The position numbers and the translations under genes are program-made. Below, piece after piece: positions 2,907 through 7,243 of a stretch of DNA of 64,000 nucleotides; the first letter of the stretch is position 1; every line of letters starts with the position of its first letter. The notes beneath the pieces are model-generated. The model had not been told where the DNA came from. It worked only from the letters and a program-made list of their open reading frames with translations, and made no database searches. This stretch comes from Phycisphaera sp. (lineage in GTDB: Bacteria; Planctomycetota; Phycisphaerae; Phycisphaerales; SM1A02). Location: the NCBI GenBank assembly GCA_016124975.1, contig WGMP01000004.1, positions 1 through 64,000 of the forward strand, given 5' to 3'.

Positions 2907-4700
2907 ATGCCGATCCGCGTCCTGCCGCCCGAACTCGTGAACCAGATCGCGGCAGGCGAGGTGGTCGAGCGTCCTGCGAGCGTGGTGAAGGAACTCGTCG
3001 AGAACGCGATCGACGCGGGCGCGCGCACGGTGCTCGTCGAGGTCGAGGGCGGCGGCGCAGAGCTCGTGCGCATCACCGACGACGGCGGAGGCATTCCCGA
3101 ACACGAACTGCCGCTTGCGGTCGCCGCGCACGCGACGAGCAAGGTCGCGACAAGCGACGACCTCGCCGCGATCCACACCTTCGGTTTTCGCGGCGAGGCG
3201 CTCGCGTCGATCGCAAGCGTGTCGCGCTTTCGCATGCAGTCGTGTGTGCACGGCGCTGCGAGCGGCGCGGAGATCGCGGTCGAGGGAGGCGCGATCGGAC
3301 CCGTGCGGCCCGCGCCCGCGCGCCCGGGCACCGTGGTCGAGGTTCGCACGCTCTTCTTCAATGTGCCCGCGCGGCGCAAGTTCCTGAAGTCTGATTCCGC
3401 GGAGACCGCGCGCGTCACCGAGACGGTCGAGGCGCTCGCGCTCGCGCATCCGACCGTGTCGTTCGAGCTGCGTTCGAACGGGCGGCGGCTCCTCGACCTT
3501 CCCGCGACGGCGGAGCCCGCGAAGCGCACGCTCGATGTCCTCGGCGCGGAGCTCGAGCCCGAGCTTCTTGAGTTCGAGGAGCGCTTCCCCGAGCTCGGCG
3601 GGCTCGTCGTGCGCGGATTCGCGGGCAAGCCGGGAATCGCGCGCCCCTCGTCGCGCGCGATCCGCATCCACCTGAACGGGCGCCCGATCATGGACCGCAC
3701 GGTGCTGCATGCGGTGCGCGAGGCGTATCGCGGGCTCGTCGACCCGGCGCGCACGCCGACGGTGGCGCTCATCCTCGAGCTCGATCCGCGCGAGGTCGAT
3801 GTGAACGTGCATCCTGCGAAGAGCGAGGTCCGCTTCCGCTCGCAGTCGGCGGTGCATTCGGCCGTGCGCAAGGCGCTCGAGCGCACGCTGCGCGCCGCGA
3901 ACCTCGTGCCGAGCTTCGTGCCCGATGCGCTGCGCGCGCCCGCGGAGCCGTACACGGGCCCGCGCGCGCCGCTCTTCGGAAGCGGACTGCCGCGCACGGC
4001 GGGAGCAGGCGCTTCGAGCGACTTCAGCGACTTCGCCGCGCTCGCGGCCGCGACGCTTTCCGCGCCCACGATCGTCGAGCCGTCCGCGGGCGCGGCACCG
4101 GCCGCCGAGCCCGTGCTCGCAGCGGAGTTCCCGTACATCCAGCTCCTCAACGGCTTCGTCGTCACGGAGGACGCAGACGGCATCGTCATCGTCGACCAGC
4201 ACGCGCTGCACGAGCGCGCCATGTTCGCAGCGTTCCTCGCGCGGCTCGAGCAGGGGCCGCTCGAATCGCAGCGTCTCCTCGTGCCGATCGTGGTCGAGAA
4301 GAGCGCGCGCGAGGTCGAGATCCTCGGCGAGATCGCGCCGCTTCTTGCGCGCCTCGGCGTGGAGGCGCGCCCGTTCGGCCCGCGCTCGATCGCGGTCGAG
4401 GCGGTGCCGACGCTGCTTCACTCGCGCAACGCCGACGCCGCGGACTTCGTCGGCGACCTCCTCGACAAGGCGGTCGAGCACGGGTCGCTCGTCTCGCTCG
4501 AGGCGGCTTTGCACGAAGTCGTCGACATGATGGCCTGCAAGGCCGCGGTGAAGGCGGGGGACTCGCTCACGCCGACGGAGATTCGCGGGCTTCTTGCCAT
4601 GCGCGAGTCGATCGAGCGTTCGACCGCGTGTCCGCACGGGCGGCCCACATCGATCCGCATCGCGCGCGGCGAGCTTGAGCGCCGATTCGGGCGAAGCTGA
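2907..4700 (+). CDS. mutL: DNA mismatch repair protein MutL
   Basis: MutL is an ATPase that links mismatch recognition by MutS to strand removal. It is 597 residues. The N-terminal GHKL ATPase has NQIAAGEVVERPASVVKELV, DDGGGI and GFRGEALASI. The C-terminal dimerisation/endonuclease part has IVDQHALHERAMF, ACKAAVKAG and CPHGRP, the motifs of nicking-type MutL. The first motif, normally DQHA-x2-E-x4-E, has Ala where the last Glu is expected (4198-4235), so nicking activity is uncertain. It starts one base after the nadE stop, with ATG at 2907, and is probably co-transcribed with nadE. No mutS is in the window. Confidence 0.95.
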   Translation: MPIRVLPPELVNQIAAGEVVERPASVVKELVENAIDAGARTVLVEVEGGGAELVRITDDGGGIPEHELPLAVAAHATSKVATSDDLAAIHTFGFRGEALASIASVSRFRMQSCVHGAASGAEIAVEGGAIGPVRPAPARPGTVVEVRTLFFNVPARRKFLKSDSAETARVTETVEALALAHPTVSFELRSNGRRLLDLPATAEPAKRTLDVLGAELEPELLEFEERFPELGGLVVRGFAGKPGIARPSSRAIRIHLNGRPIMDRTVLHAVREAYRGLVDPARTPTVALILELDPREVDVNVHPAKSEVRFRSQSAVHSAVRKALERTLRAANLVPSFVPDALRAPAEPYTGPRAPLFGSGLPRTAGAGASSDFSDFAALAAATLSAPTIVEPSAGAAPAAEPVLAAEFPYIQLLNGFVVTEDADGIVIVDQHALHERAMFAAFLARLEQGPLESQRLLVPIVVEKSAREVEILGEIAPLLARLGVEARPFGPRSIAVEAVPTLLHSRNADAADFVGDLLDKAVEHGSLVSLEAALHEVVDMMACKAAVKAGDSLTPTEIRGLLAMRESIERSTACPHGRPTSIRIARGELERRFGRS

Positions 4701-4738: not shown

Positions 4739-5044
4739 TCAGCGGCGCTCGCTCGGCTTGTCCGACTCCGCGTGCAGCACTTCGGTGAAGACCGTCTCGC
4801 CCGTCTCGAGCATGCGCTCGATGTAGGGCCTGCAGATGCCGCAGCAGCTGCCGCACCCGTAGCGGCGCGCGATCTGGTCCATCGTGGCGGGGCGCTCGTC
4901 GAGCTTCTTCTTGAGGTCGCTGAAGCGAAGGTCGAAGCAGACGCAGCGGTCGATGACGAGATCGCCGCGGCCTGCGTCGCGCGCCGTGTCATCGCGCTGC
5001 GGCCGTTCCCTTCCTTCTGCTTGTGTCGACGAATCGTGTCCCAT
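4739..5044 (-). CDS. Bfd-like (2Fe-2S)-binding ferredoxin
   Basis: This is a 101-residue protein whose core matches bacterioferritin-associated ferredoxin. Cys34-x-Cys36 (DRCVCFDL) is followed about 28 residues later by YGCGSCCGICRPYI, containing Cys64, Cys67, Cys68 and Cys71. The family binds one [2Fe-2S] cluster; Bfd itself helps release iron from bacterioferritin. The first 30 residues are polar and extra to the family. ATG at 5044 has GGAG six bases upstream. It lies 29 bases after the pseudopilin gene on the same strand, so it is probably the last gene of the riboswitch-led unit. Whether its partner is bacterioferritin or something corrinoid-related cannot be told; no bacterioferritin gene is present here. 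Confidence 0.85.
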   Translation of the reverse strand: MGHDSSTQAEGRERPQRDDTARDAGRGDLVIDRCVCFDLRFSDLKKKLDERPATMDQIARRYGCGSCCGICRPYIERMLETGETVFTEVLHAESDKPSERR

Positions 5045-5073
5045 CGCTGCTCCGGAACCTCGCGTGGCGAAAG

Positions 5074-5877
5074 TCAGCGCGGATCATACGAACGGTCGTC
5101 GTGGGAAAGGAAGCCGTTCTTCGGGAAACCCATCACTTCATCGAGGAGTTGCGGAGTCGCATTTCCGCCTTCGCAGCAGTCGCACTCGCCGCGAACATGG
5201 CCGTCGAGATATGCGACATGCGTGCATCCGCCATGTCGGAACGCCTGGGCGCCCGCGTAGACGGTGGCGAAGTCTCCCTCGACCGTCGCGCTCGGTGCGC
5301 GCATGAACTTGTTCGCGCCGCCGCGCCATCCGCCGTCGCCGAAGAGCGCAGTCGTGTCGGTGCGGCGGAAGTTGCCCGTCGCAAGGCCGCGTCGCGCCAC
5401 GGCCCATCCGTCGCGCCATGCGCCGTTCGCATCGACCTCGGGGAATCTTCCCTCTGCGCCGATGTACGAGGTGTTGTAGTTGTAGCCCGTGTAGGGATCC
5501 GCGCCGAAGGTCGACGGGCCGAGGTAGTCGGGGCACTGCTGCACGGAGGTCGGGCTCGAGAGGTAGCTCCAGAGAATGCCCGGGCGGACCACGCCGCCGG
5601 GATGCTGCTCGTGGTCCCACGCACGCGTGACGAGGCCGGCAGGCGACATCTCGTAGAGGACCGCCGCGGGATAGCGCTCTGCGTTCTGCAGCGCATAGGC
5701 GTGCGCCGCGAGCGCGAGCTGCCGCAGGTTCGACTGGCAGTGGCCCGAGCGCGCGTTGGCGCGCACCGCGCTCGTCGCTGGGACGACAAGCGAGAGGAGC
5801 ACCGAGACGATCGCGATCACGACGAGGGTCTCGACGAGCGTGAGGCCGCGGTGCGCGCGGAGCGGTTCGTGCATCAT
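5074..5877 (-). CDS. H-X9-DG type pseudopilin (prepilin-like surface protein)
   Basis: This is a 267-residue protein with a type II secretion/type IV prepilin N-terminus: a short basic leader, then HRG|LTLVETLVVIAIVSVLL, with cleavage after Gly11, Glu at +5 and a hydrophobic helix. The rest is periplasmic or exposed and ends with an H-X9-DG signature (HGGCTHVAYLDG), typical of the very abundant planctomycete pseudopilin family of unknown function. It has a Cys cluster GECDCCEGG near the C-terminus, plus CPDYLG and GHCQSN, so metal or disulfide chemistry is possible. ATG at 5877 overlaps the upstream TGA (ATGA) and follows GGGAGCGGGA. It belongs to the cobalamin-riboswitch unit. Confidence 0.88.
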   Translation of the reverse strand: MMHEPLRAHRGLTLVETLVVIAIVSVLLSLVVPATSAVRANARSGHCQSNLRQLALAAHAYALQNAERYPAAVLYEMSPAGLVTRAWDHEQHPGGVVRPGILWSYLSSPTSVQQCPDYLGPSTFGADPYTGYNYNTSYIGAEGRFPEVDANGAWRDGWAVARRGLATGNFRRTDTTALFGDGGWRGGANKFMRAPSATVEGDFATVYAGAQAFRHGGCTHVAYLDGHVRGECDCCEGGNATPQLLDEVMGFPKNGFLSHDDRSYDPR

Positions 5878-6908
5878 CGTCCCGCTCCCCATGCCGCGAG
5901 GAGGATGGCGAGGTCGGACGCGCCGACGACGCCGTCGCCGTCGAGATCGGCTGCCATGTTCTTGCCGCCAGACGCGCCCCAGGCGGAAAGAAGCGTCGAG
6001 AGATCGCCCGCGCCGACGACGCCGTCGCCGTCGAGATCGGCGGGCGAACCGACGGGCTGCACCGCCGCGATGGCGTCGATCTCGGGCGACATGCCCGCCG
6101 CGCTTGGGCCAGAGATTCGCACGAAGCGCGCGCTTGCGAGTCCGAGCGCGCCGATGTCGATGCCTGCGCCGCCGCCCGACCCCGCGTAGCGCTCGACGAC
6201 CTCGTCGTGCGAGAGCCCGATCAGCGCATGAATCGTGATGCTCGGGTCGACGGGACGCGTGAAGTCGCTCGCGACCTTGCCTGGAACGGTCGAGAACGGC
6301 CCCACATCGAGGTAGCCGAGCGTCGGGAAGAGCCCGTCGGCTGCGAGGCCGACGACGGTGCGCCAGTCGACGCCATCCGCGCTCACGGCGATGGTGCCGC
6401 CCTCCGAGGCGATTCCCGCGACGACGCCGAGCCCGAACGCGCCGTCCGTGAAGAAGGCGTTGCCGAAGACGAGGATGTCGACGCCGAACGGGTGGCGCGG
6501 GTCATCGAAGACCTCGCGGTCGAAGGCGAGGATGATTTCACCGCCGACTCCGAGCGAGACGACCTCGTTCGGGCGAAACGCCGGCTGGAACGGGGTGACG
6601 GCGCCCGGGATCAGCCCCTCGCCCGTGAATCGCTCGGGCGGTCCGAGCGCGACGAGCGGATTGTTGAAGCCCGCCACGGAGCCCGCGCCTGCCGTGTAGG
6701 AGACCACTTCCGAGGCGAAGGGAAAGTCCGCGCGCGACTGTGTGGCGACAGCGACAGCGACGGCGACGGCGACGGCGACGACTCCCAGCGTTTGACGCAT
6801 GCTGCGGTGCGCCATCCCGAGACGGCTTCTCGCTCGCGACGACGAAGCGGGGCATCTCGACGGAGCATGAGAAAGGGAAACGGACAGAAGGCTGCGCGAC
6901 AGGCGCAT
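5874..6908 (-). CDS. Secreted surface protein with two dockerin-like repeats, cobalamin-riboswitch controlled
   Basis: This is a 344-residue exported protein. After a long signal region with the run GVVAVAVAVAVAVA comes a beta-rich domain of about 250 residues: YTAGAGSVAGFNNPLVALG, then VVSLGVGGEIILAFDREV, DILVFGNAFF and TIAVSADGVDWRTV. As I recall, the last motifs resemble surface proteins found with cobalamin-riboswitch loci in Bacteroidetes and Verrucomicrobia; this is unverified. The tail holds two dockerin-like Ca-binding repeats, DLDGDGVVGAGDLSTLLSAW and DLDGDGVVGASDLAILLAAW. ATG at 6908 was chosen for its GGAAGGAG site; the ATGs at MAHRS and MRQTL are alternatives. The riboswitch upstream implies that expression falls when cobalamin is plentiful. 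The stop overlaps the pseudopilin start. Confidence 0.85.
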   Translation of the reverse strand: MRLSRSLLSVSLSHAPSRCPASSSRARSRLGMAHRSMRQTLGVVAVAVAVAVAVATQSRADFPFASEVVSYTAGAGSVAGFNNPLVALGPPERFTGEGLIPGAVTPFQPAFRPNEVVSLGVGGEIILAFDREVFDDPRHPFGVDILVFGNAFFTDGAFGLGVVAGIASEGGTIAVSADGVDWRTVVGLAADGLFPTLGYLDVGPFSTVPGKVASDFTRPVDPSITIHALIGLSHDEVVERYAGSGGGAGIDIGALGLASARFVRISGPSAAGMSPEIDAIAAVQPVGSPADLDGDGVVGAGDLSTLLSAWGASGGKNMAADLDGDGVVGASDLAILLAAWGAGR

Positions 6909-6914
6909 GTGGCA

Positions 6915-6988
6915 CTCCTTCCGGGAGCTCGCGCCCGGATCGGGTGCGCTCCGTTCCGGGAGCGCGCGGCGAGTGTCCGAACGGACAC
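6915..6988 (-). promoter_or_regulatory. Candidate expression-platform hairpins between riboswitch and start codon
   Basis: Three inverted repeats lie between the cobalamin aptamer and the ATG at 6908. They are a 6-bp stem at 6973-6988 (GTGTCC-gaac-GGACAC on the plus strand), a 7-bp stem at 6946-6965 (GCGCTCC/GGAGCGC) and a 4-bp stem at 6915-6927. The last pairs CTCC with the GGAG of the ribosome binding site. This suggests translational control by hiding the binding site, but alternative folds were not computed. Confidence 0.5.
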
Positions 6989-6994
6989 CGTCGT

Positions 6995-7215
6995 GCCTGG
7001 GCAGGTCTTCCGACTTCAGGACCGCCAGAGGCGGCGCTGCAGGCGCCTTCCCGGCCCGAGGGCCAGTGGCTGCCGCGCGAGAAACCTGCGCGGCTGCATG
7101 CAACGGGATGCGTACATCCTCCTGTCACGGCGGCGCGACCGCGGCGGATTTTCACCGCCTTCCCTCGCCGCGACGCACGCGCGTCGCGGCGCCGAAGTTG
7201 CCTTCGGACGCCCAA
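6995..7215 (-). ncRNA. Cobalamin (B12/adenosylcobalamin) riboswitch aptamer
   Basis: Read on the minus strand, the conserved pieces occur in the right order: GGGAAGGCGGTGAAAATCC, then CGCCGTGACAGG, then CAGCCACTGG, then GGGAAGGCGCC, then the B12 box AGTCGGAAGACCTGCC at 7015-7000, which has one mismatch to consensus. A 5' hairpin, CCGAAG-gcaa-CTTCGG, precedes it. It lies just upstream of the dockerin-tailed surface protein gene, on the same strand. In the family, binding of adenosylcobalamin or another cobalamin turns the downstream genes off. The 5' edge is approximate. Confidence 0.93.
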
Positions 7216-7223
7216 GCGGCGCG

Positions 7224-7229
7224 AGTATA
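7224..7229 (-). promoter_or_regulatory. Possible -10 element for the riboswitch transcript
   Basis: TATACT on the minus strand, just upstream of the riboswitch, resembles a sigma-70 -10 box. The matching -35 region (around 7252-7247) is poor. This is a weak call based on position. Confidence 0.35.
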
Positions 7230-7243
7230 CGGACCAACGCCTG

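Follow-up and report, generated by a model that had tools for sequence, protein, structure and literature searches.

A cobalamin riboswitch operon with a BtuH-type surface protein and a riboswitch-tied pseudopilin in a planctomycete: a candidate corrinoid-scavenging system

The riboswitch operon and its products

The window analysed here is a 64,000-nucleotide stretch of Phycisphaera sp. DNA (contig WGMP01000004.1, assembly GCA_016124975.1), and its subject is an operon that lies downstream of a cobalamin riboswitch and encodes a secreted surface protein (labelled P0001), a pseudopilin and a ferredoxin (Table 1). The RF00174 match covers the covariance model in full (model positions 1–189), upstream of the operon, and it was the single match in this genome among the 150 of 215 candidates scored. 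The genome belongs to the Phycisphaerae (3.61 Mb, 97.6% complete). Judged from its family, the riboswitch would permit expression of the operon when cellular cobalamin is low; no support for an expression platform was found downstream of the aptamer (fold z −0.33, no terminator on the minus strand).

The upstream start of the surface protein gene is favoured by the sequence GGAAGGAG ahead of it, and a relative in locus L040 likewise starts MRLSR, in line with this choice; the internal ATG is a possible alternative. With the pilin start placed at ATG 5877, the pilin gene shares the four bases ATGA with the end of the surface gene (stop 5874), and the ferredoxin gene begins 29 bases past the pilin stop. 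The Dockerin_1, N_methyl and Fer2_BFD matches all exceed their Pfam cut-offs (22.9, 21.2 and 26 bits). An earlier note, made from the letters alone, had described a cobalamin aptamer ahead of three same-strand genes, the overlap and the gap between them, a dockerin tail on the first product, an H-X9-DG motif in the second and a Bfd-type Fe-S ferredoxin as the third, all of which were found (the motif at His205 and Asp215-Gly216); the Rfam search that it had proposed gave a score above the gathering score, and only its outer limit of the aptamer, 7215, falls 15 bases short of the RF00174 end at 7230.

Table 1. Coordinates of the riboswitch, the genes and the domains of the operon in the window.
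Feature	Position	Strand	Evidence and remarks
Cobalamin riboswitch aptamer	6983..7230	minus	RF00174, 52.3 bits (gathering score 31.5)
Shine-Dalgarno-like GGAAGGAG	6915..6922	minus	By sequence reading; 6 bases ahead of ATG 6908
Secreted surface protein gene	5874..6908	minus	Start ATG 6908, alternative ATG 6800; signal peptide by eye
BtuH-type (B12-binding-fold) domain, predicted	6051..6731	minus	AlphaFold model, VIA fold match, profile match
Dockerin type I repeat pair, C-terminal tail	5901..6041	minus	PF00404, 28.3 bits; P0001 residues 255–301
Dedicated pseudopilin, putative	5074..5892	minus	PF07963, 25.4 bits; H-X9-DG; start 5892 or 5877
BFD-like [2Fe-2S] ferredoxin	4739..5044	minus	PF04324, 29.6 bits (cut-off 26)

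The surface domain was assigned to no Pfam family, none of 27 scanned relatives giving a significant or common match. Its AlphaFold model (mean pLDDT 96.5) had a sole Foldseek match below 0.001, 8blw_B (E 2.2e-6). A second comparison, by VIA-align over Foldseek's list of structures, placed at the top 7biz, BtuH2 of Bacteroides thetaiotaomicron (Z 12.8, rmsd 2.4, 137 aligned residues, 28% identity), then 8blw_B, the H-domain of BtuG1 (Z 12.5, 149 aligned), followed by PAPP-A chains (Z 10.4) and carbohydrate-binding modules (Z 9.5 and below). A profile made of P0001 and 12 order-wide relatives (A3) matched the same two entries among the PDB sequences (8blw_B, E 1.9e-23; 7biz, E 2.3e-18); the P0001-like profile alone reached 84.5% probability over residues 5–132 only, and the 27-row profile A1 gave no BtuH match among these sequences, only a chance hit. 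BtuH2 binds B12 via this domain, which was reported to have no known structural homologues (PMC8941943), and BtuG1 has a BtuH-homologous extension (PMC10404256). The likeness to proteins of B12 loci in other phyla, which the earlier note had pointed out, can be traced by fold and profile to the B12-binding BtuH domain of Bacteroides.

The residues of BtuH2 that contact B12 were compared with their counterparts in P0001 (Gln333, Asn399, Phe401, His476, Tyr510, Trp511, Trp577 and Leu578). Asn399, a contact of the B12 phosphate, has an Asn counterpart in P0001 and in all close (51 of 51) and divergent (9 of 9) relatives, and the Phe401 position is conserved in P0001 and 29 of the 51 close relatives. 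Gln333 is replaced in P0001 and retained in 5 of the 9 divergent relatives. P0001 lacks the loops that bear His476, Trp577 and Leu578, and the remaining contact residues fall in loops that are missing or unaligned; a GYLD motif pairs with Tyr510 in the A3 profile alignment and not in the contact-residue alignment. The BtuH fold and descent of the domain are well supported by the model and the profiles. P0001 lacks most of the contact loops, and its own binding of corrinoid is putative.

Membership of P0001 in DUF4465 (PF14717), whose proteins, including 'Pan' of the planctomycete Mucisphaera calidilacus, are tested B12 binders (PMC13398666), was rejected: none of the 27 relatives matched at E 10, and there was no match in the genome of the window. 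No BtuJ/DUF4465 structure is among the 50 matches listed in the fold comparison of P0001, which proves nothing.

The AlphaFold model of the pilin (pLDDT 93.4) has an N-terminal helix of 51 residues (4–54) and a beta-rich domain; together with the N-methylation motif, the long helix marks the protein as type IV pilin-like. DUF1559 (PF07596) scored 21.1–21.3 bits against a cut-off of 23.3, and 29 of 54 members of the group matched it at E ≤ 0.001. The model had no Foldseek match below 0.001, and the nearest solved pilins in the VIA comparison were both weak ones (Thermus PilA4, Z 5.8; a Vibrio type II secretion system (T2SS) pseudopilin, Z 4.5).

The ferredoxin has a four-Cys motif, C34-X-C36-X31-C68-X2-C71, which we take to fit the BFD [2Fe-2S] pattern. 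Relatives of it are present in about half of the loci described below (21 of 40 longer loci and 36 of 80 named ones), and its role in the operon is speculative. In one locus (L057:4367-5431) the ferredoxin frame continues into further sequence, through either a real fusion or a frame error; the extension presumably resembles a MoeA-type molybdopterin protein.

Conservation of the locus and of the riboswitch–pilin pair

Upstream of the surface gene, RF00174 scored above the gathering score in 26 of 29 homologous loci, more than expected by chance; the other three gave 26 bits at a contig end, 18.7 bits and no match. A same-strand relative of the pilin lies downstream in 39 of the 40 longer loci, which come from as many related genomes, and in 78 of the 80 loci from named genomes, a set that keeps the best 80 of 200 relatives, so that the gene order, which the earlier note had put forward as a point to check, is conserved as regards the pilin. 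The informative labels of the named relatives are mostly Phycisphaerae, Phycisphaerales or Planctomycetota metagenome-assembled genomes, and some labels look wrong. Among 61 genomes (the genome of the window and 60 relatives), 56 contain RF00174 above the cut-off, with 59 matches in all (one in 53 genomes, two in three); this search, like that of the own genome and the pilin searches of 10 and 147 genomes described below, scored part of its candidates. Downstream DNA was available for 58 of the 59 riboswitches: within 5.5 kb, a pilin of the group described below (at least 120 bits) was present at 52 of them and a BtuH-type domain (at least 70 bits) at 50, several of these 58 loci having supplied members to the BtuH-type profile. 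Of the riboswitch loci with no member in the pilin profile, 24 of 29 have the pilin, many being close kin of members. The six pilin-less riboswitches comprise three near contig ends (less than 2.8 kb), two second riboswitches with a small PEP-CTERM protein after them, and the one in genome G048.

It was observed that the first slot of the operon varies within the order, holding divergent BtuH-type, propeller-like, small PEP-CTERM or DUF4465-bearing proteins; in genome G049, a BtuH-like region and DUF4465 share a single open frame of 718 residues. Many secreted proteins of the related genomes bear dockerin tails. Propeller-like first-slot proteins were noted at L066:7034-8458, L154:4387-5421, L155, L158, L166:3615-4700, L167, L168 and L172; the one in L166 has no Pfam hit, and that in L066 matches PQQ_2 with a weak dockerin. 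Their solved relatives (profile A8) are generic propellers only (E 2.5e-6 and 1.1e-4), and they are possible analogues of BtuG. Small secreted PEP-CTERM proteins follow cobalamin riboswitches at L061:8422-9012, L156, L159, L163, L165, L170, L171, L236:3533-4093 and L242; they carry a motif GxGxN..V.D...WDG and several Trp residues. The one member of this family (A7) that was scanned had no Pfam hit, and no convincing solved relative was found for the family, which is a candidate for further corrinoid-binding proteins.

A profile built from 30 riboswitch-linked pilins was searched in 10 genomes. In nine of them, one pilin at the riboswitch site (two in G056) scored 167–371 bits, and the other listed paralogues among the 23–141 matches per genome scored at most 115 bits. 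Three of the nine genomes (G037, G044 and G053) had no member in the profile, and the scores of the other six are high partly by construction. In the tenth genome, G048, no pilin of the B12 group was found, the best match scoring 110 bits. The riboswitch-tied pilins are one distinct group.

A further search, over 147 genomes of the phylum, took the pilin sequence and not the riboswitch as its starting point, with a threshold of E 1e-38 and 18 candidates per genome scored. Hits to the pilin profile came from 19 genomes, 13 of them outside the order, in other orders and classes, and in 11 of these 13, RF00174 (70–117 bits) lies upstream on the same strand. The genes accompanying the pair differ: DUF4465, a BtuH-type protein, the pilin and a BtuF-like gene in L233; BtuH-type, DUF4465 and pilin in L234; BtuH-type and pilin in L235 and L236; BtuF-, BtuC- and BtuD-like genes and then the pilin, with no surface protein, in L240; and a small PEP-CTERM protein and the pilin in L242, L237 being placed with it solely from the spacing of the two elements. 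In L238, L243, L244 and L245, 170–371 bases and no gene lie between the riboswitch and the start of the pilin domain, and L238 and L244 have a gene of family PF01902 further downstream. The pilin is the constant partner of the riboswitch while the neighbouring genes differ. In L239 and L241, which are weighed below, an NHL-repeat-looking gene was seen by eye further downstream of the pilin; these two loci might serve as a control for the action of the pilin apart from the riboswitch.

B12 dependence and the proposed route of uptake

Twenty-five genomes were picked from the 61 for completeness (at least 92%) and spread. B12-binding domains, a FecCD permease and a secretin were found in all 25, the FecCD family holding BtuC together with iron and heme permeases. 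No CbiC, the single marker used for de novo corrin synthesis, was found in any of these genomes, most of which are drafts, while the same search was positive in 7 of 14 control genomes; these planctomycetes seem unable to make B12 and dependent on an outside supply. No TonB receptor was detected in 11 of the 25 genomes, and the other 14 have at least one each, the plug (PF07715) and barrel (PF00593) models agreeing. All 11 receptor-free genomes have the riboswitch and the pilin, as do, for the pilin, 13 of the 14 with a receptor. The fourteenth, G048, has at L205:5659-8529 a riboswitch followed by a TonB receptor and a PF01902 gene, and its genome yielded no pilin of the B12 group; genes of the PF01902 enzyme family may be part of B12 loci. 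The genome of the window encodes MetH (TIGR02082, 1230 bits, cut-off 1011) and a Peripla_BP_2–FecCD–ABC ATPase cluster.

B12 has a mass of about 1.36 kDa, and the Gram-negative B12 uptake known to us requires BtuB and TonB. Porins are limited to about 600 Da in the account of Boedeker et al. (2017), who proposed fibre-linked uptake through the outer membrane into the periplasm (PMC5394234); the vitamin exceeds this limit. We propose, with a probability of roughly 0.6, that the operon scavenges corrinoid for a planctomycete dependent on outside B12, its dedicated pseudopilin acting at the outer-membrane step. At low cellular cobalamin the riboswitch would permit expression; the secreted BtuH-type protein, to judge from its fold, homology and regulation, would catch the corrinoid outside the cell; a type II secretion or type IV pilus-like machinery would assemble the pseudopilin, which would take the place of BtuB and TonB and move either the corrinoid or its carrier through the outer membrane; and an importer of the periplasmic-binding-protein/FecCD/ABC kind, whose genes lie elsewhere in the genome, would then receive the corrinoid. 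The ferredoxin might conceivably give electrons for cobalt reduction before the cofactor is used. The earlier note had imagined a surface capture system in which the pseudopilin presents or moves the ligand and a reductant acts on the cobalt: the link between pseudopilin and B12 proved far stronger than was first seen, and the reductant is found in only about half of the loci.

Several results weigh against this proposal. Within P0001, Gln333 and the loops of three contact residues are lost, and the BtuH-type domain is present in only 4 of the 11 riboswitch–pilin loci outside the order (67–97 bits). L239 and L241 (genomes G101 and G120, of one genus) have the pilin and no RF00174 within about 5 kb upstream. 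Pilins of the H-X9-DG/DUF1559 type are very abundant, as the numbers of matches in the 10 genomes indicate. The pilin occurs in all 11 genomes in which no TonB receptor was detected and in 13 of the 14 that have one, 24 of 25 in total, so that it is general and does not track the loss of the receptor, and G048, where a receptor follows the riboswitch, is a single case. Dependence on outside B12 is deduced from one marker in largely draft genomes. The own genome has kept a single TonB receptor, of the CarboxypepD_reg type and on another contig, so TonB-dependent entry of B12 is possible there. The best model for its importer permease is BtuC, at 160 of the 334 bits needed, and that for the ATPase is a heme transporter, at 183 of 261 bits; on these scores the cluster is a candidate B12 importer. 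BtuFCD is hard to separate from iron and heme systems (PMC2667541).

The main rival explanation is that the pseudopilin gives substrate specificity to a type II secretion-like exporter that places the B12-binding protein on the surface; B12 itself would enter by an unrelated route, through a TonB receptor in genomes that have one or else through a channel that escaped detection. In the type II systems that are known, pseudopilins act in export; the pilin stands beside secreted proteins at most of the order's loci and is retained in genomes with TonB receptors; all 25 genomes have secretins; and the Vibrio T2SS pseudopilin is among the structural neighbours, weak as that match is. We nevertheless consider export unlikely, since in L238, L243, L244, L245 and L240 no gene for a surface protein separates the riboswitch from the pilin, and since the pilin is constant while the first-slot protein changes among BtuH-type, propeller-like, DUF4465 and small PEP-CTERM forms, although substrates encoded elsewhere in the genome would escape this argument. 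It is also conceivable that the pilin has no role in B12 and is a bystander inherited with the operon, planctomycetes having many DUF1559-type pilin genes that follow genes of secreted proteins. The paralogue numbers make room for this, being 68 in Planctopirus limnophila, where DUF1559 is the largest paralogue group and has no assigned function (PMC10632474), and 74 in Rhodopirellula baltica (PMC2754498), besides those of the 10 genomes. The gap between the scores of riboswitch-linked pilins and those of the other listed paralogues, and the return of the pilin profile to RF00174 in 11 of 13 outside genomes with different neighbours, make it highly improbable.

That the first gene encodes a B12-repressed surface protein of some other function, which binds no corrinoid, would agree with the loss of most BtuH2 contact residues and with the frequency of dockerin tails on secreted proteins here. 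Against this stand the two nearest solved structures, both B12-binding domains and both ahead of PAPP-A, the retention of Gln333 and Asn399 among the divergent relatives, and the presence of DUF4465, a tested B12-binding family, in the same operon in L233 and L234 (PMC13398666); we regard this explanation as distinctly unlikely.

The corrinoid-scavenging reading can be extended, on a tentative footing that we rate at somewhat less than an even chance. B12 uptake in Planctomycetota would then proceed by a TonB-independent pseudopilus route in which the H-X9-DG pilin is constant and the catchers (BtuH-type, propeller-like, DUF4465 and small PEP-CTERM proteins) are interchangeable; by extension, the similar pilins, dozens to more than 100 in each genome, would be parts of a single fibre machine, each serving to take up or capture a specific ligand.

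Two features of the window lie beside the operon. Adjoining its end, at 2907-4700, is what we take to be a mutL-like gene, and a mutL-like frame was likewise seen near the locus in L061 (13316-13996), a synteny judged by eye only. Overlapping frames at 102-450 encode peptide repeats that are nearly identical (ATPTTRTxRHEHQGCPHASACGT), which indicates a direct DNA repeat.

Comparison with known systems

B12-uptake loci with surface binders are already known; a riboswitch-tied pseudopilin as a constant member was not found described. A search of the open-licence PMC literature by title and start of abstract returned no description of a B12-linked pilin, which is weak evidence of absence. The available part of the Planctopirus essential-gene study mentions DUF1559, and the words pilin, cobalamin, B12 and secretion system are absent from that part (PMC10632474). 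A riboswitch operon with a surface protein and a pilin suggests that B12 is taken up by a route so far unrecognised, and pilus-based uptake, if true, would be categorically new. The operon offers a ligand, a gene and a phenotype for probing how planctomycetes pass large molecules through the outer membrane, and the same system could probe the role of the huge DUF1559/H-X9-DG pilin families. The BtuH B12-binding fold, which was reported in 2022 to have no known structural homologues, extends on these results to another phylum.

P0001 resembles BtuH2 and the H-domain of BtuG1 (7biz, 8blw) in fold, profile homology, the Asn of the B12-phosphate contact, apparent secretion and a locus under a cobalamin riboswitch. 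It differs in being shorter, in having no lipobox by eye and a dockerin end where they have PKD or propeller fusions, and in lacking most contact loops and an adjoining btuB. In the gut, btuB is in the same operon for over 80% of BtuH homologues (PMC8941943), whereas the window operon has no btuB or TonB receptor gene beside its BtuH-type gene. DUF4465/BtuJ proteins are found in the same riboswitch operons (L233 and L234), and both domains occur in one G049 frame, yet P0001 has no DUF4465 match; it is by sequence profile that the two families are set apart.

With TonB-dependent uptake by BtuBFCD, the system shares importer genes of the BtuFCD family and riboswitch control, but no BtuB is encoded in the locus, a pseudopilin is part of the operon, and neither of two models finds a TonB receptor in 11 of the 25 genomes. 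The window pilin has the N-terminal methylation motif and long helix of the ComGC and GspG pseudopilins, with partial model matches below cut-off; unlike them, it has its own C-terminal domain with H-X9-DG and is under B12 riboswitch control. A parallel within the phylum is that of the dextran-binding pili-like fibres and crateriform structures of planctomycetes, for which fibre-linked uptake through the outer membrane was likewise proposed with no gene assigned in the available text (PMC5394234), whereas for the present system both a defined ligand and a gene are proposed.

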